NCBI GenBank assembly: GCA_016192995.1
Contig: JACPTB010000001.1
Coordinates: forward strand, 129,110-193,109
Direction of reading: 5' to 3'
Origin: Candidatus Woesearchaeota archaeon
GTDB taxonomy: Archaea; Nanobdellota; Nanobdellia; Woesearchaeales; DSVV01
DNA length: 64,000 bases
A program made the position numbers and the translations under genes. Of this stretch, positions 3 to 61,116 are shown one piece after another. The notes under the pieces were generated by a model that had not been told where the DNA came from, ran no database searches, and worked only from the letters and a program-made list of their open reading frames with translations. Position 1 is the stretch's first letter. Each line of letters opens with the position of its first letter.

Positions 3-980
3 TACCCGTCTGCCAGTGAACAAGGTTCTCAAAGTGAACAGGGTTCTCAAATTGCTCAAGAGAATGGAAGTATTGATGTCTCTTTTTGCCCTTCATCAGC
101 TTGTGAGGATGTTTTTGTTGACCTTATTACCAACGCCCAAGAAACAGTTTATTGCGCATTCTATGACTTAGATAACAGCGCAGTAATACAATCGCTTGCT
201 AACAAAAGTAGAATTATAGATGTTAGGCTTGTTATTGACAGTGATAATGTTCATAATCAAATATATGGAGAAGGCATCGTTGTTGATACCAAAAAGCAAT
301 ATATGCATAATAAATTTTGTATTATTGACCATACTACTGTTATTACCGGGAGCGCAAATCCAACAGATAATGATTTTTTTAACAATAACAATAATATTCT
401 TGTTTTTGCATCACAATATCTCGTAAGCAATTATGAACATGAATTTGAAGAATTATGGTCCGAGCAATTCGGTAAAGGTGAAGCAGTCAAATATCCTGAA
501 ATTATCATTAATAACATAACGGTTGAAAATTATTTCTGCCCTGAAGATGACTGTGAAGAACATCTTTTAGAAACACTCGATAAAGCAGAAAACAGCATTT
601 ATTTTATGACGTTTAGTTTTACTTCTGATAACGTTGAGGAAAAGTTATTGAATAAATTTAATCAAGTGAATACAACAGGCAAGACCATTGCTATTAAAGG
701 AGTTTTTGAAAAAAGATCGCAAAGCAAGGACAGCGCTTTTTTTAGCTTGAATAAAACAGGAATTCCTGTTATCTTTGATAATAATCCTAAAACTATGCAT
801 CACAAAGTGTTTATTATTGATGAAAAGACTGTTATTACAGGAAGTTATAACCCAACAAAAAGAGGTACTGAAGTTAATGATGAAAATATGATTATTATTC
901 ATGATCCAACTATAGGGCGACTGTATGTAAAAGAGTTTAAGAGAATATATACTCCGATGATTAGCGAGAACGACACATAA
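3..980 (+). CDS. Phospholipase D-like HKD protein (5' partial)
   Basis: The frame is open from base 3 to the stop at 978-980, so the true start lies before the window. Two HKD motifs mark the PLD superfamily: HNKFCIID...GSANP (about residue 101) and HHKVFIID...GSYNP near the C-terminus. Each fits HxK(x)4D followed by GSxN, so both halves of the active site are present. The family includes phosphodiesterases acting on phospholipids and bacterial Nuc-type nucleases. Cysteine pairs near the start of each half and a Q/S/G-rich N-terminal linker suggest an exported or envelope protein; that is an inference. It could equally be a nuclease. Fold confidence is high, substrate is unknown. Confidence 0.85.
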   Translation, partial: YPSASEQGSQSEQGSQIAQENGSIDVSFCPSSACEDVFVDLITNAQETVYCAFYDLDNSAVIQSLANKSRIIDVRLVIDSDNVHNQIYGEGIVVDTKKQYMHNKFCIIDHTTVITGSANPTDNDFFNNNNNILVFASQYLVSNYEHEFEELWSEQFGKGEAVKYPEIIINNITVENYFCPEDDCEEHLLETLDKAENSIYFMTFSFTSDNVEEKLLNKFNQVNTTGKTIAIKGVFEKRSQSKDSAFFSLNKTGIPVIFDNNPKTMHHKVFIIDEKTVITGSYNPTKRGTEVNDENMIIIHDPTIGRLYVKEFKRIYTPMISENDT

Positions 981-1049
981 AGAACAAACATCAAGGGGGA
1001 CATTTCATCGTAGTTGTTTTAGTTAGTCGTAGGGGGTGGGTGTTCGTCG

Positions 1050-1652
1050 TTATTTTTTCCAAACTATATGTCCATTAATATTATTTTTCTCATATACTTG
1101 TAGAACATCTTCACAGAATTTAATCAGTTCTTTATCGTTGTTTGCTTTTGCAAGTTCATAAAGTCGTATAAACATTCTTTTTCCAGTTTCAGTTTGTTTA
1201 TAGTATTTCTTTTGAAAATTATGTTGTGCACAGAGAGTTTGTCCATTAGAAATTTCAGCTTTACCGCCTAATTCTTTTGGTTTAATATGGTCTGCTTGAA
1301 TTTCAATACCATCTGCTTTTCCTCTACCGCAGATTACACATCTATAATTATCTCTCTTAAAAATTTCTTCTTTTTGTGCGGGTGTAAAATCTTCAAGTTC
1401 TCTATTATGTACGAAATCAGGGTCATATTTGTAAACTCCTTTATTTATTTTGATAAGTTGTCCTTCTTGCGATAATTTTCTAATTGCTCTGTCAGGATCT
1501 CTAAATACTTTTCCTATTCTTTTTTTAAACTCAGCAACAACCCAGTCAACAATTTCAGGATGAGGTATCTCTCTCTTAGGATGTTTCTTATAATATTCCA
1601 TAATTAAATCAGCTTGCGACATTTCTTCCTTAGTTTTTGCCATTTGTATCAT
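1050..1652 (-). CDS. HNH endonuclease, probable type II restriction enzyme
   Basis: The 200-residue protein has an N-terminal winged-helix-like half (about 10-75; basic, includes DPDRAIRKLSQEGQL) and a C-terminal HNH nuclease core: CVICGRG, then ADHIKPKELGG, then N...LCAQHN. The two cysteine pairs probably hold a structural zinc and the H-N-H residues bind the catalytic metal. It starts 14 bases after the stop of a DNA methyltransferase on the same strand, the usual type II restriction-modification arrangement, so it is inferred to cut the site that enzyme protects. An ATG nine bases further in (1643) is an alternative start. The recognition sequence cannot be read from the protein. Confidence 0.8.
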   Translation of the reverse strand: MIQMAKTKEEMSQADLIMEYYKKHPKREIPHPEIVDWVVAEFKKRIGKVFRDPDRAIRKLSQEGQLIKINKGVYKYDPDFVHNRELEDFTPAQKEEIFKRDNYRCVICGRGKADGIEIQADHIKPKELGGKAEISNGQTLCAQHNFQKKYYKQTETGKRMFIRLYELAKANNDKELIKFCEDVLQVYEKNNINGHIVWKK

Positions 1653-1666
1653 GCCTTATTGTTTGT

Positions 1667-2605
1667 TTAATTGACAGTAACATCGAGCAATTTCTGAGTA
1701 GGATTGAAATCCGTTCTTTTTGTAGTGATGGGTTTTTCTTTCTCGACTTTCATTTCATGTAATTTCTTTTCAAAAAGATTTGCTTCAGCAATTATCCTTT
1801 TTTTTGCTATAGCACAATATTTTACATCAACATCAATTCCTATTGATTTTCTATTATTGGAAACAGCAGCTATTAATGTAGAACCACTTCCCATAAAAGG
1901 ATCTAAAACAACATCTCCCACAAAACTAAATAATTTAATACATCTTCTTGGTAACTCAACGGGAAACGGTGCAGGATGACCTCCAGCTCCTTTTTTACTT
2001 TGCCCTTGAAAAGTCCATAAACCATTAGTCCAATCCATAAATTCTTGTCGAGTTATATCTGACTCTTTCTTTTCTTTCTTTTTCCAATCCTGCTTATACA
2101 AAATTAGGATTAGTTCTACCGGTGCAATTACATAAGGAGCAGATGCACTTAGCCAAGAACCCCAAGCAGTTCTTCTTGAAATATTTCCTTCATTCCAGAT
2201 AATTGTAGAATGATACTTATAACCTATTTTTTTTGCAATAGTTGTAAAATCTGCACCAACACTCTGCTGACCATCTTTATTTTTATCTAAGGGAATATTT
2301 AGACATAATCTCCCATCATCTTTTAACCATTCAAAACATCTGGACAACCATTTATGACTAAATTCTAAATATTTTTCATAACTTATTTTGTCATTATGAG
2401 AATTATATTTAATATCAACATTATAAGGTGGAGATGTAACAATTAAATCAACACTATTTTTAGGAATTTTATCTGTTGAAAGTACATCTTCGCAGACTAT
2501 CTTCGATTTTTCATGATTAAAAAAAACTTCACCCTTCATAGAGATAGTAGAATTGTGAGTATTTATTAATGTTTGGCTTTTTAAATCGGAGATTTTCCGC
2601 TCCAC
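1667..2605 (-). CDS. Site-specific DNA methyltransferase (beta class)
   Basis: Motif IV, TSPPYN, comes first (about residue 57) and the AdoMet-binding motif X/I region, DPFMGSGST, lies near the C-terminus (about residue 235). This order defines beta-class amino-methyltransferases. SPPY is more typical of N4-cytosine than N6-adenine enzymes, but that is not decisive. The protein would protect host DNA from the HNH nuclease encoded just downstream (1050-1652). The longest frame begins at a GTG (2605). An ATG at 2539, still well before motif IV, is a credible alternative start. The 215-base upstream gap is richer in G+C than its surroundings and holds an imperfect inverted repeat built on TTCGTGTT. 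Confidence 0.88.
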   Translation of the reverse strand: MERKISDLKSQTLINTHNSTISMKGEVFFNHEKSKIVCEDVLSTDKIPKNSVDLIVTSPPYNVDIKYNSHNDKISYEKYLEFSHKWLSRCFEWLKDDGRLCLNIPLDKNKDGQQSVGADFTTIAKKIGYKYHSTIIWNEGNISRRTAWGSWLSASAPYVIAPVELILILYKQDWKKKEKKESDITRQEFMDWTNGLWTFQGQSKKGAGGHPAPFPVELPRRCIKLFSFVGDVVLDPFMGSGSTLIAAVSNNRKSIGIDVDVKYCAIAKKRIIAEANLFEKKLHEMKVEKEKPITTKRTDFNPTQKLLDVTVN

Positions 2606-2821
2606 CCCCGTGTTCGTTTTCGTCCGTTTAGAAATATCCTCCTCTCAGTCGTAGTCGCTAAAAATTATTGAACTCTCGGAATTCGTGTTTAACGCCCTGA
2701 GCGAACATAGCTTTAACACGAACCTACTCTCGCACTTTAGGCTTCACACTATTGTTTATTATTTTTACTACTAAATATCATAACTTTTATATATCTTCTT
2801 GTAGAAATTAGACCGGTAACT

Positions 2822-3534
2822 ATGACTGCAATCCTCCTTGTTCATGGGTTAAGCGCTACTAATCAAATATTTGATGACTTAGAAAAGCGATTAAAACGAA
2901 AAAAATACATAGTATATAACCCTTTATTACCTGGACATGGAACTGTACCCGAAGATTTAACAAAAGTTTCCTATCAGCATCTTGTTGATTTCTTGAAAAG
3001 GTATATTAAACCAATTATCAAACAATATAAACAAGTAATAGTTATTGCTGAATCATTTGGCGCAAATATTGCTCTTGATGCTGTTGCTAAAAAATATATT
3101 AAAGGAATGATTTTCCTCGGAACTGCGCTTAAAGTGCGAAAAGAATGGTTATACCAAGGAATAATCTCTTTTCTCTAAACATTTTATCCTCATTATTATT
3201 ATAAAAAAGAGAAAAATCATCCTCGTGTCATTAAAGGCACCACCTATTCGAAAATACCTTTAAGAGCGATAGATATGTACTTTACCAAAAGTAAAAATTT
3301 TCACGAAAGAATTAAAACTTGTTTTTTTCCGATGTTATTTTTATTTGCAAAACACGATTTTCTCATTGACACAGGGTGGAAAAAGGATTTTCTTAAACAT
3401 CACCAAAATAGCCATTTCAGTTTGTTGAATATGATACCAGAAGACACGCAATATTAGAAAGCGAGCATCAAACAGAGATTACAAATAAAATATTGAGTTT
3501 TATAGACAAAAATGATATTTCAACTACTTTTTGA
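2822..3534 (+). pseudogene. Alpha/beta hydrolase, broken by a stop and a frameshift
   Basis: Two disrupted pieces form one recognisable lipase/esterase of the carboxylesterase/monoglyceride lipase type. The N-terminal part (2822-3178) has the oxyanion HG motif (LLVHGLSA), PGHG, and a nucleophile elbow AESFGAN. A TAA at 3176-3178 interrupts it. The same frame continues past the stop into PRVIKGTTYSKIP and the acid-residue strand LFAKHDFLID. Near 3440 the frame shifts, and the new frame gives RHAILESEHQTEITNKILSF, the typical C-terminal catalytic-histidine segment, ending at 3534. Ser, Asp and His are therefore all still readable across the breaks. The end overlaps the convergent hepT-like gene by 11 bases. 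Two sequencing errors are possible but less likely than decay. Confidence 0.8.
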
Positions 3535-3943
3535 GAGTTTTTAAATATTCCTTAATCTCATTTTTAAATTCTAGAAAATCCTTTCTATTCTCCATAATAT
3601 TATCATAAACTCTTTGATCCTCTATCTTAGTATAATGGTGGATTAACACATTCCTAAATGCTTTCATGTTTTTAAGTTTAAGCGCCATCTCTTCAGAAAT
3701 AATTTTTTTTTCATATAGCGTCTTAAACATATTGTCTTCATCAGAAGGCAGACCAAGTTTTAATTCTCTAATAATTGCTTGGCAAACATCAATACAAACC
3801 TCAATCAATAATTGCAATAACCTTTCACAATATCTCTTTTGTTGAGAGACATACTCTTGATAAGATTCAGGAAGATGTTCTTCTAATTCTTGGTTATATT
3901 GATCTAAAAAATCAAGCAATGAGGTAATTCTCTTTTTATTCAT
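3524..3943 (-). CDS. hepT: HepT-like HEPN-domain RNase toxin (DUF86)
   Basis: The protein is about 139 residues from the ATG at 3943. The frame is open further upstream, but that ATG fits the family and the 8-base overlap with the preceding nucleotidyltransferase gene (ATGAATAA). The HEPN signature R-x4-H-x-Y is present as RNVLIHHY near residue 113. In characterised HepT/MntA pairs, HepT is an RNase that MntA neutralises by adding AMP to the Tyr of this motif; the Tyr is present. Length, gene order (antitoxin first) and overlap all match such modules. The target is not predictable. Confidence 0.88.
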   Translation of the reverse strand: MNKKRITSLLDFLDQYNQELEEHLPESYQEYVSQQKRYCERLLQLLIEVCIDVCQAIIRELKLGLPSDEDNMFKTLYEKKIISEEMALKLKNMKAFRNVLIHHYTKIEDQRVYDNIMENRKDFLEFKNEIKEYLKTLKK

Positions 3944-4352
3944 TAAGAACAGCCTCCAGATAACCTTCATAAATGGGTTTAAAATGTTCATAATCACGAA
4001 GTGTTCCAAAATAAAGATCATACAAGGCATCTTCATCTTTACAGAAGATGATTTTCCCTTCATTGATTATTGGTATTCTGATGTACAATGGAAGATGCTG
4101 AAAGATTTGAACGTCATACTTTTCATTATGATGAGCATATTCTAACAATTTACCTGATAATTCATAAGAAGTATACTTATGAGGCTTCAGAAAAATACAA
4201 ATATCAATATCGCGGGAATATTGTTCTCCTCTTGCAACACTGCCGAATATGCTTACAGCTAATACCTGTTTATCTTTTTTTGCTTTTTCAATGATTTCTT
4301 GAATGACCTTATTCTGCATCATTACATTGATTTTGATCTTATCTGTTTCCAT
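3936..4352 (-). CDS. mntA: MntA-like nucleotidyltransferase antitoxin
   Basis: A minimal nucleotidyltransferase of 138 residues. The signature GSVARGEQYSRDIDI (G-S-x-A-R-G-E ... D-x-D) starts near residue 37 and supplies the two metal-binding aspartates. It sits directly upstream of, and overlaps by 8 bases, a HEPN toxin gene, the standard MntA-HepT layout. MntA proteins AMPylate the HEPN toxin on its RX4HXY tyrosine. The start ATG at 4352 lies about 50 bases from the divergent mutL start, so the two genes share a short promoter region. Confidence 0.88.
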   Translation of the reverse strand: METDKIKINVMMQNKVIQEIIEKAKKDKQVLAVSIFGSVARGEQYSRDIDICIFLKPHKYTSYELSGKLLEYAHHNEKYDVQIFQHLPLYIRIPIINEGKIIFCKDEDALYDLYFGTLRDYEHFKPIYEGYLEAVLNE

Positions 4353-4404
4353 GGATTATCGCTATATCTAAAACATTATAAATATTTGGGTTTTCCCCTC
4401 ATTC

Positions 4405-6102
4405 ATGGGTGTTATAAAAGAGCTTGATCAGGACCTTATAAATAAAATAGCAGCTGGAGAAGTCATTGAACGGCCTGCTTCAGTAGTCAAAGAATTAGTG
4501 GAAAATGCTATTGATGCGCATGCAAGGACCATCATTATTTCGGTTATAGAAGGTGGAAAGTCACTGATTAAAATATCTGACAATGGTTGCGGCATTTCCT
4601 CTGATGAAGCAGAACTTGCTCTCAAACGGCATACGACTTCTAAAATCGAAACGCTCAATGATTTGTTTAACATAAAATCTCTTGGTTTTAGGGGGGAAGC
4701 GCTTGCAAGCATTGCTTCAGTAAGCAGCATGGAACTTGTTACTAAAACTGCTGAAGAAGATACTGGCACCTATCTTGAAGTTGTTTCTGGAGATATAGTG
4801 CAGAAAAAATCAGTTGCAGCCAACAAAGGCACTGCTATTTCAGTGCATAATCTTTTTTTCAATGTTCCTGCTCGAAAACAACATCAAAAAACTATTGCCA
4901 CTGAATTTAGGTATATTCTTGAATTAGTAACACACTATGCACTGATTCATCCTGAAATCAATATTACTTTGATTCATAATGAAAAAGAAGTGCTTAATGC
5001 TCCTTCCACCGAAGATGTCCTTACCAATATTGCTTCAGTATATGGAAGAGGATTATGCGGAGATTTACTGCCAGTTGATTTTTCTTTTTTTGATCTCCAT
5101 GTTTCAGGATTTATTTCAATTCCTGGAAAAGCGAGAAATGATAAGAATTTCCAGAGCATTTTTGTTAATAAGAGATTTGTCCACAATTATCTTATTCAGA
5201 AAGCAGTCTATGACGGTTATGGGAGCTTATTATTTCATGGAAAACATCCTGTGTTTGTCTTGAATGTAACTATTGATCCAAAAAAAATAGATGTTAATGT
5301 GCATCCAACAAAAGCGCAAATCAGAATAGAAAAAGAATCAGATGTTTATATCAGTGTTAAAAATGCTGTGATAAAAACATTGAAAGAACATAATCTTGTT
5401 CCTGAAATGTTCAGCAATAAGCAAGATTTTCCTCGCGACATCAATGCAAAACTGGTTATTGATCCATTCCCTCAAGAAGAACAGCTGTACCTTGATGAAG
5501 ATGTTGATCTGCTCAGGAAAAAAGAAGTGGGGATAAGAATATTGGGGAGAATTTATCAGACCTTTATTATTGCTGAAGATGATAAAGGAATGCTGCTCAT
5601 TGACCAGCATGCTGCACATGAAAGAGTTATGTTTGAAAAATTTATGCAGCAATATCAGAATAAAGCTATTAAAGTACAGCAATTGCTGCAGCCTATTATG
5701 CTTGAATTAAGCGCTTTAGAAACTGATGTGGTTATTAATAATATAAGCATTTTAGAGAACTGTGGAATTTTTATAGAAGAGTTTGGAAAGAATACGTTTC
5801 TTGTTCGAAGTTTGCCAAGCATTTTTGCGCGGCAACAAGATAAAAATATAGTTTTAGCAATAATTGGTGAATTAGGAAGCGGCGAACTTAAAACCATTAG
5901 CTTAGTTAAAGAAGAACGAATTGCGATGGCAGCATGCAGAAGCGTTGTTAAAGCGCATGATATTCTTGAAATGCCCGAGTTGTATGCATTATTACAAGAA
6001 TTATTCAGCTGCAAGAATCCTTATTCCTGCCCTCATGGAAGACCTTCTATGATCCATTATAGTTTGTATGATTTAGAAAAGAAGTTTAAGAGAAGAGTTT
6101 AA
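4405..6102 (+). CDS. mutL: DNA mismatch repair protein MutL
   Basis: A 565-residue GHKL ATPase. N-terminal motifs: NKIAAGEVIERP, VKELVENAIDAHA (catalytic Glu), DNGCGI, and LGFRGEALASI, a full ATP-binding module. The C-terminal domain carries the endonuclease motif DQHAAHERVMFE (DQHA-x2-E-x4-E, about residue 399), then ACRSVVKAHD and CPHGRPSM, which complete the metal site of nicking-type MutL. It should therefore nick DNA during mismatch repair without MutH. No mutS lies in this window. MutL is patchy in archaea and usually explained by transfer from bacteria. A TATA-like TATAAATATTT lies about 25 bases upstream. Confidence 0.96.
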   Translation: MGVIKELDQDLINKIAAGEVIERPASVVKELVENAIDAHARTIIISVIEGGKSLIKISDNGCGISSDEAELALKRHTTSKIETLNDLFNIKSLGFRGEALASIASVSSMELVTKTAEEDTGTYLEVVSGDIVQKKSVAANKGTAISVHNLFFNVPARKQHQKTIATEFRYILELVTHYALIHPEINITLIHNEKEVLNAPSTEDVLTNIASVYGRGLCGDLLPVDFSFFDLHVSGFISIPGKARNDKNFQSIFVNKRFVHNYLIQKAVYDGYGSLLFHGKHPVFVLNVTIDPKKIDVNVHPTKAQIRIEKESDVYISVKNAVIKTLKEHNLVPEMFSNKQDFPRDINAKLVIDPFPQEEQLYLDEDVDLLRKKEVGIRILGRIYQTFIIAEDDKGMLLIDQHAAHERVMFEKFMQQYQNKAIKVQQLLQPIMLELSALETDVVINNISILENCGIFIEEFGKNTFLVRSLPSIFARQQDKNIVLAIIGELGSGELKTISLVKEERIAMAACRSVVKAHDILEMPELYALLQELFSCKNPYSCPHGRPSMIHYSLYDLEKKFKRRV

Positions 6103-27630: not shown

Positions 27631-27683
27631 AAGATCATCTAGATTATTGATAATGGTTTATATAGTTTTTTATGAAGTAATAC

Positions 27684-27718
27684 CAGACATAAATAACTCA
27701 TAACAATTGTTATGTCTG
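27684..27718. repeat. Hairpin beside the 52-bp repeat
   Basis: CAGACATAA (27684-27692) pairs with TTATGTCTG (27710-27718) around a 17-base loop. It immediately precedes the left copy of the 52-bp repeat, and part of its right arm (TTATGTCT) is absent at the right copy. Confidence 0.45.
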
Positions 27719-27774
27719 ATAAACATTAGTAAGCGATTTGTTTTATGATTTACTTTTGTCGCTTACTAATGTTT
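27718..27774. repeat. 52-bp palindromic repeat, left copy
   Basis: From GATAAACATTAG to CTTACTAA (27718-27769) this is identical to 29107-29158. Arms AAACATTAGTAAGCGA and TCGCTTACTAATGTTT (27721-27736, 27759-27774) form a perfect 16-bp inverted repeat with a 22-base loop. Identity resumes upstream (ATAACAATTG at 27700-27709, matching 29097-29106) across an 8-base indel. The two copies bracket a two-gene segment, like an attachment or recombination site. Confidence 0.75.
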
Positions 27775-27929
27775 GGAAAATTATTTAAACTTAGTAGTTT
27801 ATCTCTAATACCATCGTGGGTTTTATAGGTAGAGGCGATTGACAGTGTATATATTTGTATATTAATATAGCAAATAGAAGGATTTATAAACTTAAAGATA
27901 AAATTCAATAATAAAAAGAGGGAACTAAA

Positions 27930-28160
27930 ATGGAATATCTTCAAGTCACTAAGCAGAATAGGGATGTTATTCTTGAGTTATTAAGAAAAGATGTAGACAA
28001 AGAAGGATTTATAATTGATAAAAAAACTGGAAAAAAATTGGTTTGCCCTTATTCAGGAAGTCATATTCATTCTGAGGATTTTTCTATTCTTCCTGGTTCT
28101 GCAACCTTTGTAACTAATAAATCTTATTGCTTTGCTGAACATATTGTTTCTCATAAATAA
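27930..28160 (+). CDS. Hypothetical 76-residue protein
   Basis: Not recognised. It has a helical first half (QNRDVILELLRKD) and a second half with CPYSGSHIHSEDF and YCFAEHIVSH, where two Cys and several His could bind a metal. AGAGGGA lies seven bases before the ATG. It is the first of two genes between the 52-bp repeats, 8 bases from the second, so the two probably act together. Confidence 0.6.
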   Translation: MEYLQVTKQNRDVILELLRKDVDKEGFIIDKKTGKKLVCPYSGSHIHSEDFSILPGSATFVTNKSYCFAEHIVSHK

Positions 28161-28168
28161 GAGGTAAC

Positions 28169-29002
28169 ATGGTTGGGGGAAAAGATAGTAAACTTAATGA
28201 GAAAGATAGGAAACAAAAAGAAAGCCAAGAAAGGGTAATTGCTGGTATAAGGGTAATTGAGTCTATTGTTTCAAAGGTTGTTGCATCTCCATCTGAAATT
28301 TTATCGGGATTAAAGCAAATTCTATTTTTTTATCGACTCATCCCAAAGAAATGGAAAGAAAAAGCATTCTGGGTTTTTGAGAAACTCTGGGCAAAGAAGA
28401 AAGTAGTTATATCTACAGACCCAGAAAAACCCGAGCAAATATATGAAGTAATCTTTGAGGATGATAAATTAAAATCATTATATAATATGTTACCACAAGT
28501 AGATCAACCAATTATGCTACAGGGTAAGTCTATGATAAATTTAATTGACAAAGGATTGCATTCTGATTCTGATGTTATTAAAGCAACCGTAGAAGAAAAA
28601 TATGGACAAAGAGGGTTAAATATTGTAAATATGCTAACAACTAAAAATATACAAGAAGTATTGGACGAAATAGAAACTGAAAAAATAACTCAACAAAAGG
28701 ATTTTGAAAAAAAGTTTAATGATTGGGCTTACAATTATGATTCTTTAGCTGTTTTGGTTTCGCCTAGCGAACTTACAAACACTAAAAATGTTAATAGCAA
28801 GATTATGGCAATTGCAAAGAGCACACGAAAAAACTATATTTTAATAAATATATCTGGAAAGATGGAAGATTGTACACAATTAATTAATACTATCTCACAA
28901 TTAAAAGAAAATAAAGAATTGAAATATGAAAATTTTACTTATGATATCTCTGATTCTGGATTTTGTAAGTCTTTAAGAGGTAAAATAATTTTCAAAAGTT
29001 AG
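28169..29002 (+). CDS. Hypothetical 277-residue protein in the repeat-bounded cassette
   Basis: Not recognised. The N-terminus is Lys/Glu-rich and probably coiled coil (about 5-35), then basic-hydrophobic (FFYRLIPKKWKEKAF). The rest looks alpha/beta with YDSLAVLVSPSEL and NYILINISG strands. No signal or clear membrane segment. It starts 8 bases after the 76-residue gene with GAGGTAAC as ribosome-binding site. Together they form a two-gene unit bracketed by 52-bp repeats and could be cargo, for example defence genes, but no motif proves it. Confidence 0.6.
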   Translation: MVGGKDSKLNEKDRKQKESQERVIAGIRVIESIVSKVVASPSEILSGLKQILFFYRLIPKKWKEKAFWVFEKLWAKKKVVISTDPEKPEQIYEVIFEDDKLKSLYNMLPQVDQPIMLQGKSMINLIDKGLHSDSDVIKATVEEKYGQRGLNIVNMLTTKNIQEVLDEIETEKITQQKDFEKKFNDWAYNYDSLAVLVSPSELTNTKNVNSKIMAIAKSTRKNYILINISGKMEDCTQLINTISQLKENKELKYENFTYDISDSGFCKSLRGKIIFKS

Positions 29003-29106
29003 GCAAAGCCGTATAATGCTTGGCATTATGCGAAGAATGTGGGTTAAGAATTTTTGGGAATTCAAAACCTCCGCTCACCATCAAAGGTTCGCTACGATAA
29101 CAATTG

Positions 29107-29158
29107 GATAAACATTAGTAAGCGATTTGTTTTATGATTTACTTTTGTCGCTTACTAA
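29107..29158. repeat. 52-bp palindromic repeat, right copy
   Basis: Identical over 52 bases to 27718-27769, separated by 1389 bases. The last five bases of the right arm differ (AGTGT instead of TGTTT). The preceding 100 bases after the cassette hold a small hairpin (ATAATGC and GCATTAT near 29012-29028) and no gene. Confidence 0.75.
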
Positions 29159-29210
29159 AGTGTAGATAACGCAAAAAACAGAGAAAAAAGAATAAAACTT
29201 ACTTATGTAT

Positions 29211-29624
29211 CTATTCATTAACACCATAACCTTCTTGCAGATAGGTTAAGCATTCGCTTTTGCGGTAATTGTCATCTAAACTTTGACAGAAATTAGGTGA
29301 CTTTGAAGCAACTGCAACAACATAATCAGGGTTGGTAAAACAATTATCTTCAATGCTATTATCTGAAACTTCTTCACAATAAACAATGTTTTCCCGCTCA
29401 TGCATAATTGTTCCATCAAGTTCTGTTGTTACTTTTGTTTTTGTTGGCTTTGTTTTTTTTGTTTCTTCCTTGCTTGGCGAAACATAGGTAACTACAACAG
29501 GAGCCATGGACACTGTTGCTTGAGATGGTTGTGTTTTCTGCTCTGGCACATCTTTTGGAGCAGTATTACATCCAGCAGCAAATGCTAGCAACATAATCAT
29601 TAAGATCAATAACACTTTCTTCAT
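29211..29624 (-). CDS. Predicted lipoprotein
   Basis: 137 residues. The N-terminus MKKVLLILMIMLLAFAAGCN is a signal peptide with a bacterial-type lipobox (AAGC), followed by a Thr/Lys/Pro-rich linker and a C-terminal domain with four cysteines (VYCEEV, DNCF, NFCQSL, SECLTY). A signal peptidase II homolog (53093-53509) is encoded in this window, so processing at Cys19 is plausible. A perfect 25-base palindrome lies 15 bases ahead of the ATG, beside an AAGGGGGT ribosome-binding site. Confidence 0.72.
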   Translation of the reverse strand: MKKVLLILMIMLLAFAAGCNTAPKDVPEQKTQPSQATVSMAPVVVTYVSPSKEETKKTKPTKTKVTTELDGTIMHERENIVYCEEVSDNSIEDNCFTNPDYVVAVASKSPNFCQSLDDNYRKSECLTYLQEGYGVNE

Positions 29625-30573: not shown

Positions 30574-30734
30574 GAGAACTTTGCAAAATTATGGTTACTG
30601 CCTATTAGGTGAGCATTTTCGAAATATTTATCGGGCAATTTTCGAGGTTCCAGAGAGAAAATTGCTTTGTCAAACATATATCTCAATGCGAACCGGCAGT
30701 AACCCGAGCTTTGCGAGTATTTTGCAAAGTTCTC
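30574..30734. mobile_element. Palindromic element P1
   Basis: 161 bp with perfect 16-bp terminal inverted repeats GAGAACTTTGCAAAAT / ATTTTGCAAAGTTCTC. Inside are a second arm pair (TTACTGCC/GGCAGTAA) and a central stem GCAATTTTC/GAAAATTGC capped by the 13-base loop GAGGTTCCAGAGA (30644-30656). A possible 4-bp target duplication is TATT. It encodes nothing. The loop recurs in P5, P7 and P9, and with changes in P2 and P4. Confidence 0.75.
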
Positions 30735-30780
30735 TATTGTGTTTGAATAAGAGGTGATATAAAAAGTATGCCATAAAGAG

Positions 30781-30936
30781 AGTACGTAATAAGTCTTTAC
30801 TAGGTTTTAGCGCCGGTTCAGCTTCAAATGAGATTAAACATTGGATTTTTCTCTCTGGCACTCCGAAAAATCCCCAAAGTGAATTTGAGTAGAGCTTCAC
30901 AAAATAGGCGCTAAAACCCCAGACTTATTACGTACT
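30781..30936. mobile_element. Palindromic element P2
   Basis: 156 bp with 16-bp terminal repeats AGTACGTAATAAGTCT. A 6-bp target duplication AAAGAG flanks it (30775-30780, 30937-30942). The inner arms GGTTTTAGCGCC/GGCGCTAAAACC and the central stem GGATTTTTC/GAAAAATCC are shared with P5 and P9. Read on the minus strand, the loop is GGAGTGCCAGAGA, one base different from the consensus. It lies between P1 and the pfkB promoter. Confidence 0.82.
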
Positions 30937-38954: not shown

Positions 38955-39108
38955 GGCTCTGGTGAAAATGTAGTTTTAGCGCCCATTCTGTGAAGCTTTT
39001 TTTAGATAACTGTGGGGATTTTTCGGAGTTCCAGAGAGAAAAATCCAATGTTTTAATCACTTTTGAAGCTGAACTGGCGCTAAAACCTGAAAGATTTTCA
39101 CCAGAGCC
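38955..39108. mobile_element. Palindromic element P5
   Basis: 154 bp with 15-bp terminal repeats GGCTCTGGTGAAAAT. A perfect 9-bp target duplication CTGTGTTAC flanks it (38946-38954, 39109-39117). Outer repeats resemble P3 and P8, but the interior (GTTTTAGCGCC/GGCGCTAAAAC arms, stem GGATTTTTC, loop GGAGTTCCAGAGA at 39025-39037) matches P9 and P2, which have different outer ends. It sits between tRNA-Ser and HicB. Confidence 0.85.
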
Positions 39109-51753: not shown

Positions 51754-52656
51754 TTAAGCATACCGACCATCAATAAATGCGCGATATTGCGCTCGTTCAG
51801 TAATATCATATCCATCTTCAGTAAACATCGAAATTTGACGGCGATTAACACGTTCTTCAAGCTTTCTCACAATATCTAATATTTCTTGAAGAGACTTTTT
51901 TTTGATTAATTTTACCGAACAATATAATATTAATGGAAACCGATCAATATACTGAGTTCCATTACTTACTTTTTGATTCATTTCATCATATATTCCTTTA
52001 GTTCGTGAAAGCGAATAACCTAAAACACTTGGCAGGGTTGAAACTATATGGTTTGTTTGTTCCTCGGTATGGCGGCTGTCAAGAAATTGATATATTCCTT
52101 TAGTTCGTGAAAGCGAACAGCCTAAAACACTTGGCAGGGTTGAAACTATATGGTTTGTTTGTTCCTCGGTATGACGGCTGTCAAGAAATTGATATATTCC
52201 TTGAGTTCGTGAAAGCGAACAGCCTAAAACACTTGGCATAGTTGAAACTATATGGTTTGTTTGTTCTGAGCCATGACGTTCTTGTAAATAAGTTAATCTT
52301 TCTAAAGAACCATTGCTTATTGCACGATGATTTACGACGATAAACGGCAGTGGAAGATATATTCTAGCACCATAAAACGCTTTTAGAACTTCCCATTTTT
52401 TGTCTGAAGGTGACTTCCATCTTGGCTGAACTGCTTTTTTTAATAATGATTCTAAATCAAACGGTTGTTTTTTCTTTTTTCGATGATCTCTTCTATTAGC
52501 GAGATCATCTGATTTCTTTTGATTTGATATCTCACTAAGGCTAAAATAGGCTGTTCTGATTTCTTCTTTGTCAGCAAAAAATTGTCTGGTTTTAACCCAA
52601 TCGTTTCCATTTAATGCTTCTGTTAACTCTTCAGTTAATGTTGCTGCGGGAGTCAT
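51754..52656 (-). CDS. mTERF-like helical-repeat protein
   Basis: 300 residues. Three near-identical 34-residue units (HTEEQTNHIVSTLPSVLGCS then LSRTKGIYQFLDSR) plus weaker ones (RFPLILYCSVKLIKKKSL; YLPLPFIVVNHRA) show the mTERF pattern: helix, Pro, hydrophobic L-x-x-S, helix. mTERF proteins are nucleic-acid-binding solenoids best known from mitochondria and plastids. Flanks are basic (RRDHRKKKKQPFDLE). A role in DNA or RNA binding is inferred. TTTATAACC lies about 25 bases upstream of the ATG. Confidence 0.6.
   Translation of the reverse strand: MTPAATLTEELTEALNGNDWVKTRQFFADKEEIRTAYFSLSEISNQKKSDDLANRRDHRKKKKQPFDLESLLKKAVQPRWKSPSDKKWEVLKAFYGARIYLPLPFIVVNHRAISNGSLERLTYLQERHGSEQTNHIVSTMPSVLGCSLSRTQGIYQFLDSRHTEEQTNHIVSTLPSVLGCSLSRTKGIYQFLDSRHTEEQTNHIVSTLPSVLGYSLSRTKGIYDEMNQKVSNGTQYIDRFPLILYCSVKLIKKKSLQEILDIVRKLEERVNRRQISMFTEDGYDITERAQYRAFIDGRYA
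51991..52296 (-). repeat. Three tandem 102-bp coding repeats
   Basis: Units at 51991-52092, 52093-52194 and 52195-52296, period 102 bases (34 codons), differ at only a few positions. Near-identity at silent sites shows recent duplication within the mTERF-like gene. Confidence 0.9.
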
Positions 52657-60961: not shown

Positions 60962-61116
60962 AGTACGTAATAAGTATGTGGTTTTAGCGCCTACTTTTGT
61001 GAAGCTTTTCTATATTTACATTGGGGATTTTTCGGAGTTCCAGAGAGAAAAATCCAATCTTTAATCACCTTTGAAGCTGAACCGGCGCTAAAACTATAGA
61101 AGACTTATTACGTACT
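60962..61116. mobile_element. Palindromic element P9
   Basis: 155 bp with terminal repeats AGTACGTAATAAGT / ACTTATTACGTACT. A perfect 6-bp target duplication ATCTAT flanks it (60956-60961, 61117-61122). The interior (GGTTTTAGCGCC / GGCGCTAAAAC, stem GGATTTTTC, loop GGAGTTCCAGAGA at 61034-61046) matches P5 almost base for base, although the outer repeats are those of P2 and P4. Between adk and the msrA fragments. Confidence 0.85.

Follow-up and report, generated by a model that had tools for sequence, protein, structure and literature searches.

The 1480-bp unit at 27678-29157 of the window, i.e., of the whole 64-kb stretch of Candidatus Woesearchaeota DNA analysed here, can with slightly better than even confidence be regarded as a non-autonomous cargo transposon of the IS630 type, a mobile insertion cassette (MIC). 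It carries the left end of a dispersed hairpin element on one side and the right end on the other, and a transposon without a transposase of its own has probably either moved or trapped the gene pair enclosed. According to the mechanism proposed, an IS630-family transposase would be supplied in trans by another element and would recognise the ends (TARYNNNNGACANAA...). On the left the unit starts with the 5' end of a complete two-hairpin MITE, and on the right it finishes with the 3' end of a copy of this MITE that is truncated. Insertion of the unit would produce a 3-base duplication, here AAG, and the passengers would be a conserved two-gene operon, possibly with a nucleic-acid binding product. 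Movement of the whole unit in a single step, driven by an IS630 transposase, is our inference.

Layout of the unit and its repeats

An exact 52-base direct repeat, present at 27718-27769 and at 29107-29158 with a spacing of 1389, is the longest widely spaced exact repeat of the 64-kb window, and its copies are 94% identical over 63 bases. An earlier, sequence-only reading of this DNA had described these copies, 16-bp inverted arms that are slightly changed in the right copy, and a homology extending outward with an 8-base indel, all of which was borne out. The arms are perfect in the left copy (27721-27736 and 27759-27774), the outer arm of the right copy is altered (88% over 17), and the upstream sequences, ATAACAATTG-TTATGTCT-GATAAAC on the left and ATAACAATTG-GATAAAC on the right, correspond to each other across a real gap of 8 bases.

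The 52-mer is the 3' part of a dispersed element of 91-94 bases with two tandem hairpins (27678-27768), the full form of which begins at 27678, 5' of the 52-mer, and by this adds a second hairpin. This full-length MITE copy (27678-27768, plus strand, 91 nt) was delimited by the R1 covariance model (108 bits) and by alignment with eight other copies. Its 5' end, TAATACCAGACATAA, forms the left end of the whole unit from 27678 (plus strand) and is preceded by AAG at 27675-27677, the left copy of a presumed 3-base target-site duplication. Hairpin 1 (27684-27718, plus strand; CAGACATAA ... TTATGTCTG with a 17-nt loop) is indicated by its fold and by compensatory changes, which affect 3 of 12 pairs in other genomes; hairpin 2 (27721-27774, plus strand, by its fold), with 16-bp arms and a 22-nt loop, makes up most of the 52-mer. 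The right MITE copy (29097-29157, plus strand; R1 match of 51.6 bits, and sequence) is truncated, hairpin 1 being gone except for ATAACAATTG and hairpin 2 being intact. Its 3' end, ...GTCGCTTACTA, closes the unit at 29157 (plus strand), and AAG follows at 29158-29160 as the right copy of the presumed target-site duplication, in agreement with a facing-end scan described below. The outer flanks of the unit are accordingly AAG and AAG; the inner flanks are unequal, with ATG at 27769-27771 to the right of the left copy. The unit end is redundant in that the left copy retains its hairpin 2 internally.

Two open reading frames lie between the copies and are separated, as had been stated before, by 8 bases: gene A (27930-28160, plus strand), whose homologues and structure model indicate a conserved small protein of 76 aa, and its partner gene B (28169-29002, plus strand), with 277 aa, a helical N-terminus and, by Foldseek, a possible Alba-like C-terminal domain. 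They are followed by a GC-rich (43%) tail at 29003-29096, reaching from gene B to the right copy, in which no significant fold was detected and of which the genome holds no second copy. Searches against Pfam, NCBIfam, PHROGs and PADLOC returned no transposase family in the unit, and the earlier remark that no recombinase lies inside proved correct.

The two-hairpin element family and its IS630 partners

In this genome contig C5 carries a further copy of 27678-27768 (97% over 93 nt), C10 a diverged copy of the element and C13 its left half. When copies of other genomes are aligned, they present two tandem hairpins, TRCYRGACATAA...TTATGTCYRGYA and TTAGTAAGCGA...TCGCTTACTAA, in which 97% of the hairpin cells are paired, compared with 27-60% in slid controls, and eight cells are changed on both sides, compared with 2.5 in shuffles; the folds lie far below those of shuffled sequences (z about -5 to -6). 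Of the 353 genomes of the order that were searched with the R1 covariance model, 79 contain the element, and these represent 59 of 220 genera. Copies per genome range from 0 to 40+, and about 40 copies or pieces were counted in G003, many of them near-identical within unrelated flanks. Named records that matched the pattern nearly all belong to Candidatus Woesearchaeota, mostly from groundwater, with one labelled Aenigmatarchaeota. Since the 52-base repeat is the longest of its kind in the window, its hairpins fold far below shuffles and the element recurs in 79/353 genomes, it is not a product of chance.

The element is short (91-94 nt), non-coding and multi-copy and has exact ends (TAAT...ACTA), as is characteristic of MITEs. 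Besides the two-hairpin form, single-hairpin copies occur, as do copies with up to ~8 different hairpins between the same two ends. Loci L199, L200, L201, L202, L206, L212 and L124 (G003/G007) and L158:2081-2541 (G257) have the same two terminal hairpins with extra, different hairpins inside. Such multi-hairpin elements contain one to ~8 further hairpins and reach a total of ~140-550 nt, some show their hairpins in the same order at different loci, and the hairpin-only L158 element of 461 bp is bordered by a TAT/TAT duplication. They constitute a modular, hairpin-only transposable family. The subfamilies at L163 and L167 (G268, G243) possess similar stems in both hairpins (TAGTGAGCGAC / TAGTAAACGAC), so that their ends are clear inverted repeats, and are perhaps the ancestral form.

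For a test of target duplications the ends were set at TAAT...ACTA and the window copy was left out. Identical 3-base flanks were found in 21 of 28 copies outside the TA subfamilies (mean 4.9 and maximum 12 in 5000 shuffles), comprising AAA, AAG, AAC, AAT, ATA, TTG and others, and about a quarter of single copies have no perfect duplication. The remaining copies, which belong to other subfamilies, all sit in TA (27/27). Duplications of 3 bases or of TA lead one to suspect a DDE element as partner. Both ends fit one degenerate TIR, TARYNNNNGACANAA, which also occurs on five IS630 elements, and each end is at the same time one arm of its own hairpin. The match of its termini with those of IS630-family transposons of the same order (up to 23/28 bases) makes the element a MITE of an IS630-like group.

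Matching facing TIRs, 996-1024 bp apart, bound 5 of the 18 IS630-family (PF13358) loci of the order (shuffled loci: mean 0.2, maximum 2), and three of these five have 3-base duplications, namely TTT, ACT and TAT. Two further IS copies in G062 have one precise common right end, TAGTTAACGACATAAGTAACGCAT, close to that of the MITE of the same genome, TAATGCCAGACATAAATAACCCAT. The right end in the window agrees with the IS end in G024 at 23/28 bases, a value that among 5494 TAR-anchored 28-mers of the window is reached only by the element's own two copies. For IS630, a duplication of 2 bases is given in PMC6352166, and TA is seen in one element group; the window's group and 3/5 matched IS have 3-base duplications, and this 3-base-duplicating subgroup is a departure from IS630. 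The transposase can be read as a two-ORF arrangement with putative DDE motifs IDEVGF, LDNAGWHK and PPYS.ELNPIE. The IS630-family elements at L227, L229, L234, L222 and L225 measure ~1.0 kb, and at least in L227 and L234 the transposase is divided over two ORFs of ~170 and 175 aa in a frameshift-like manner; three of these five loci show a 3-base duplication in place of TA.

PF13358 and the element occur together in 15 of 34 genomes compared with 7.6 expected, a figure confounded by kinship and accompanied by an absence from the highest-copy genomes, on which account no conclusion is based on it here. No PF13358 match was obtained in the window's genome or in G003/G007, and an autonomous copy in the high-copy G003/G007 was discarded as a candidate, only small hairpin inserts having been seen there. 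With no DDE_3 transposase in unit or genome, the unit is at most a non-autonomous IS630 derivative; in these three genomes either the MITEs outlived their transposase or the latter lies in unassembled sequence. The IS630 elements at L224 (G119) and L231 (G191) were rejected as partners on account of different TIRs (TAGTAAGGGAGG and TAGTTAGTAAC, respectively), and hence the IS630 elements of the order are not all partners.

Origin of the unit

The sequence-only reading had left a choice between an integrated cassette with attachment-site repeats and a transposon end pair. The second description was upheld, the outer ends being left and right IS630-type MITE ends between AAG and AAG. The first was not: the 52-mer is part of a MITE that is dispersed singly and mostly without the gene pair, and homologues of the gene pair elsewhere are nowhere near such elements. 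Wide single dispersal of the 52-mer, named by the sequence-only reading itself as its refutation, largely refutes a site specific to the gene pair. The repeats are transposon ends and do not represent att sites of one particular integration system.

A facing-end scan of 977 kb of DNA, with ends 110-5000 apart, yielded equal 3-base flanks in 7 of 14 non-TA facing pairs (shuffles: mean 1.1, maximum 6), namely the window unit, three IS630, two interrupted MITEs and one 461-bp hairpin-only element. As is typical of a MIC, facing IS ends with a target duplication (27678, 29157, AAG/AAG) enclose passenger genes, here two ORFs, without a transposase; the AAG/AAG match alone has a chance of about 0.17 (~17% by flank shuffles). 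The unit is flanked by the genes for FNR and DJ-1, and since these are adjacent, 47-105 nt apart, in the relatives G003, G004 and G007 of the same family, the gene pair is probably a newcomer between them. A lipoprotein gene (29211-29624) additionally lies between FNR and DJ-1, so that this site has received more than one insertion. This extra gene counts against the cassette reading, as do the redundant end and the loss of hairpin 1 from the right copy, the lack of a detectable IS630 transposase in the genome and the chance that AAG and AAG agree fortuitously. Variants common to the left and right copies are absent from the C5 copy, which implies either a common source or descent of one copy from the other. 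A second copy of the 1480-bp unit was not found. Three histories fit these data: transposition of a cassette, a cross-over with a resident MITE, and two independent insertions.

The main rival to cassette transposition, in our view less probable, is a recombination event in which a resident MITE took part. One MITE copy would have been present at AAG, where a circle or fragment with the gene pair and a (truncated) MITE recombined, homologously or site-specifically. The direct instead of inverted orientation of the repeats speaks for this, and a left copy with AAG on its left and ATG on its right together with a right copy with AAG on its right is exactly the outcome of a cross-over of two MITE copies; the common variants without C5 counterpart make the copies each other's closest relatives. 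However, no known plasmid or circle with the gene pair or the element exists, viral contigs are devoid of the element, and the circle of 1.4 kb would have no replication gene.

Ranked after recombination, and likewise less probable than the cassette, are two independent MITE insertions around a gene pair of other origin, the right one having later lost hairpin 1. MITE copies or halves do adjoin small accessory genes elsewhere in the genome (C5, C13), the gene pair is found elsewhere without a nearby MITE, and ATG for AAG could be one mutation, given that ~1/4 of single copies are imperfect. Yet separate insertions require two modest coincidences, a chance match of the outer AAG (~0.17) and a decayed inner duplication (~0.25), jointly ~0.04 against ~0.75, and would have to account for copies that are identical over 52 bases and have variants in common versus the third copy.

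Far less credible is an integron-type or tyrosine-recombinase cassette with the hairpin repeats as attC/att sites: palindromic repeats do border a small gene unit, but the repeat is single, mostly without cassettes and in unrelated contexts, it has exact ends, target duplications and IS630 termini, the gene end shows neither a significant hairpin nor an attC-like fold, and the unit is without a recombinase. A role as structured RNA or as a transcription signal, with function and not mobility as the reason for conservation, is just as hard to sustain. The compensatory changes in hairpin 1 and the fixed length are outweighed by precise boundaries, target duplications, copies that are nearly identical although their flanks are unrelated, a copy number per genome of 0 to 40+ and the lack of an Rfam match.

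Solitary half-elements were considered as cassette borders as well. An initial scan for left ends standing alone was too permissive and returned chiefly noise, and the half-elements in C13 and G010 were set aside, no partner end being found within the stretches read. At L155:8712-9998 (G000, C13) the MITE left half immediately precedes two genes that may be read as an AbiEii-type nucleotidyltransferase and its partner, and no right end follows within the next kilobases.

The gene pair, known systems and wider context

Gene A homologues were recovered from 18/353 genomes of the order and, by profile search, from 37/371 of the phylum, and a gene-B-like partner follows directly downstream in most homologous loci read; the two form a conserved but fast-evolving operon, patchily distributed over the phylum and usually present in one copy per genome. 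Its homologues at L170-L185 encode ~80 aa and 225-277 aa, the latter with a possible Alba-like C-terminus. None of 17 homologous loci, inspected up to 1.5 kb on each side, contains an R1 element, from which it follows that the operon is independent of the MITE. The gene pair has no NCBIfam or PADLOC match, and those in Pfam and PHROGs are weak and below cut-off. The gene A model (pLDDT 88) gave no significant fold match. For the C-terminal domain of gene B the best and repeated Foldseek hits were Alba (probability 0.96, E 0.1; model pLDDT 70), a lead that it may bind nucleic acid. A phage or virus origin was dismissed, the hairpin pattern being absent from viral contigs, gene B having no relatives there and a convincing PHROG match being lacking, and a defence system was discarded in the absence of a PADLOC match.

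Among known systems, the mobile insertion cassettes MIC231 of Bacillus cereus (cited in PMC6542083) and the qnrS2 MICE of Aeromonas pAC3 (PMC5444012) resemble the unit as non-autonomous IS derivatives in which IS-type ends enclose passengers but no transposase. Compared with both, the window unit has IS630-type ends, belongs to a DPANN archaeon and is known from sequence alone; the two-hairpin MITE copies at its ends are directly oriented, and one additional hairpin lies inside. TIMEs, Tn3-derived MITE-bounded mosaic transposons, were demonstrated to move (PMC4133298) and are comparable in that two miniature elements can mobilise intervening DNA; they have Tn3 ends and 5-6-bp duplications, whereas the window has IS630-type ends and 3 bases. 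MITEs of IS630/Tc1/mariner, e.g. Submariner (PMC4495683), are likewise short, non-coding and of high copy number with TIRs of DDE elements, and TA is duplicated in one set of the present subfamilies as well; unlike them, the other subfamilies duplicate 3 bases of no fixed sequence and each element end forms an arm of a separate hairpin. REP/BIME with RAYT (PMC2817692) are also dispersed extragenic palindromes in mosaic arrays, but would be expected without target duplications; the present element differs from them in its IS630 termini and in being flanked by such duplications.

MITEs and MICs are established types of element, whereas an order-wide, two-hairpin archaeal family with 3-base duplications is new as far as the literature was searched, in which no paper on MITEs in Woesearchaeota was found. 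Mobile elements of DPANN archaea are poorly described, and an order-wide high-copy MITE family with identifiable IS630 partners makes it easier to study how genes are transferred, and how plastic genomes are, among organisms whose genomes are tiny. The family also accounts for hairpin repeats that one might otherwise take for CRISPR-like repeats, non-coding RNAs or attachment sites, and the unit, if a true cassette, would allow a small conserved operon to relocate in these genomes. A more general proposal, to which we assign a low probability, is that a Woesearchaeales-wide IS630-like group duplicating three arbitrary bases mobilises modular hairpin elements (one to ~8) and occasional gene cassettes. 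In this proposal, the preservation of each end as a hairpin arm by covariation would point to recognition of the hairpin itself, as single-stranded DNA or RNA, in departure from the usual IS630/mariner mode.

Other repeats were observed in the window. Another dispersed, partly palindromic repeat (GGGGATTTTTCGGAGTTCCAGAGAGAAAAATCC...) lies at 39013-39049 and 61022-61058, related sequence is found around 30670-30900 and also on C5 (L002:2210-2420), and a tandem repeat with a period of 102 bases extends over 51988-52240.
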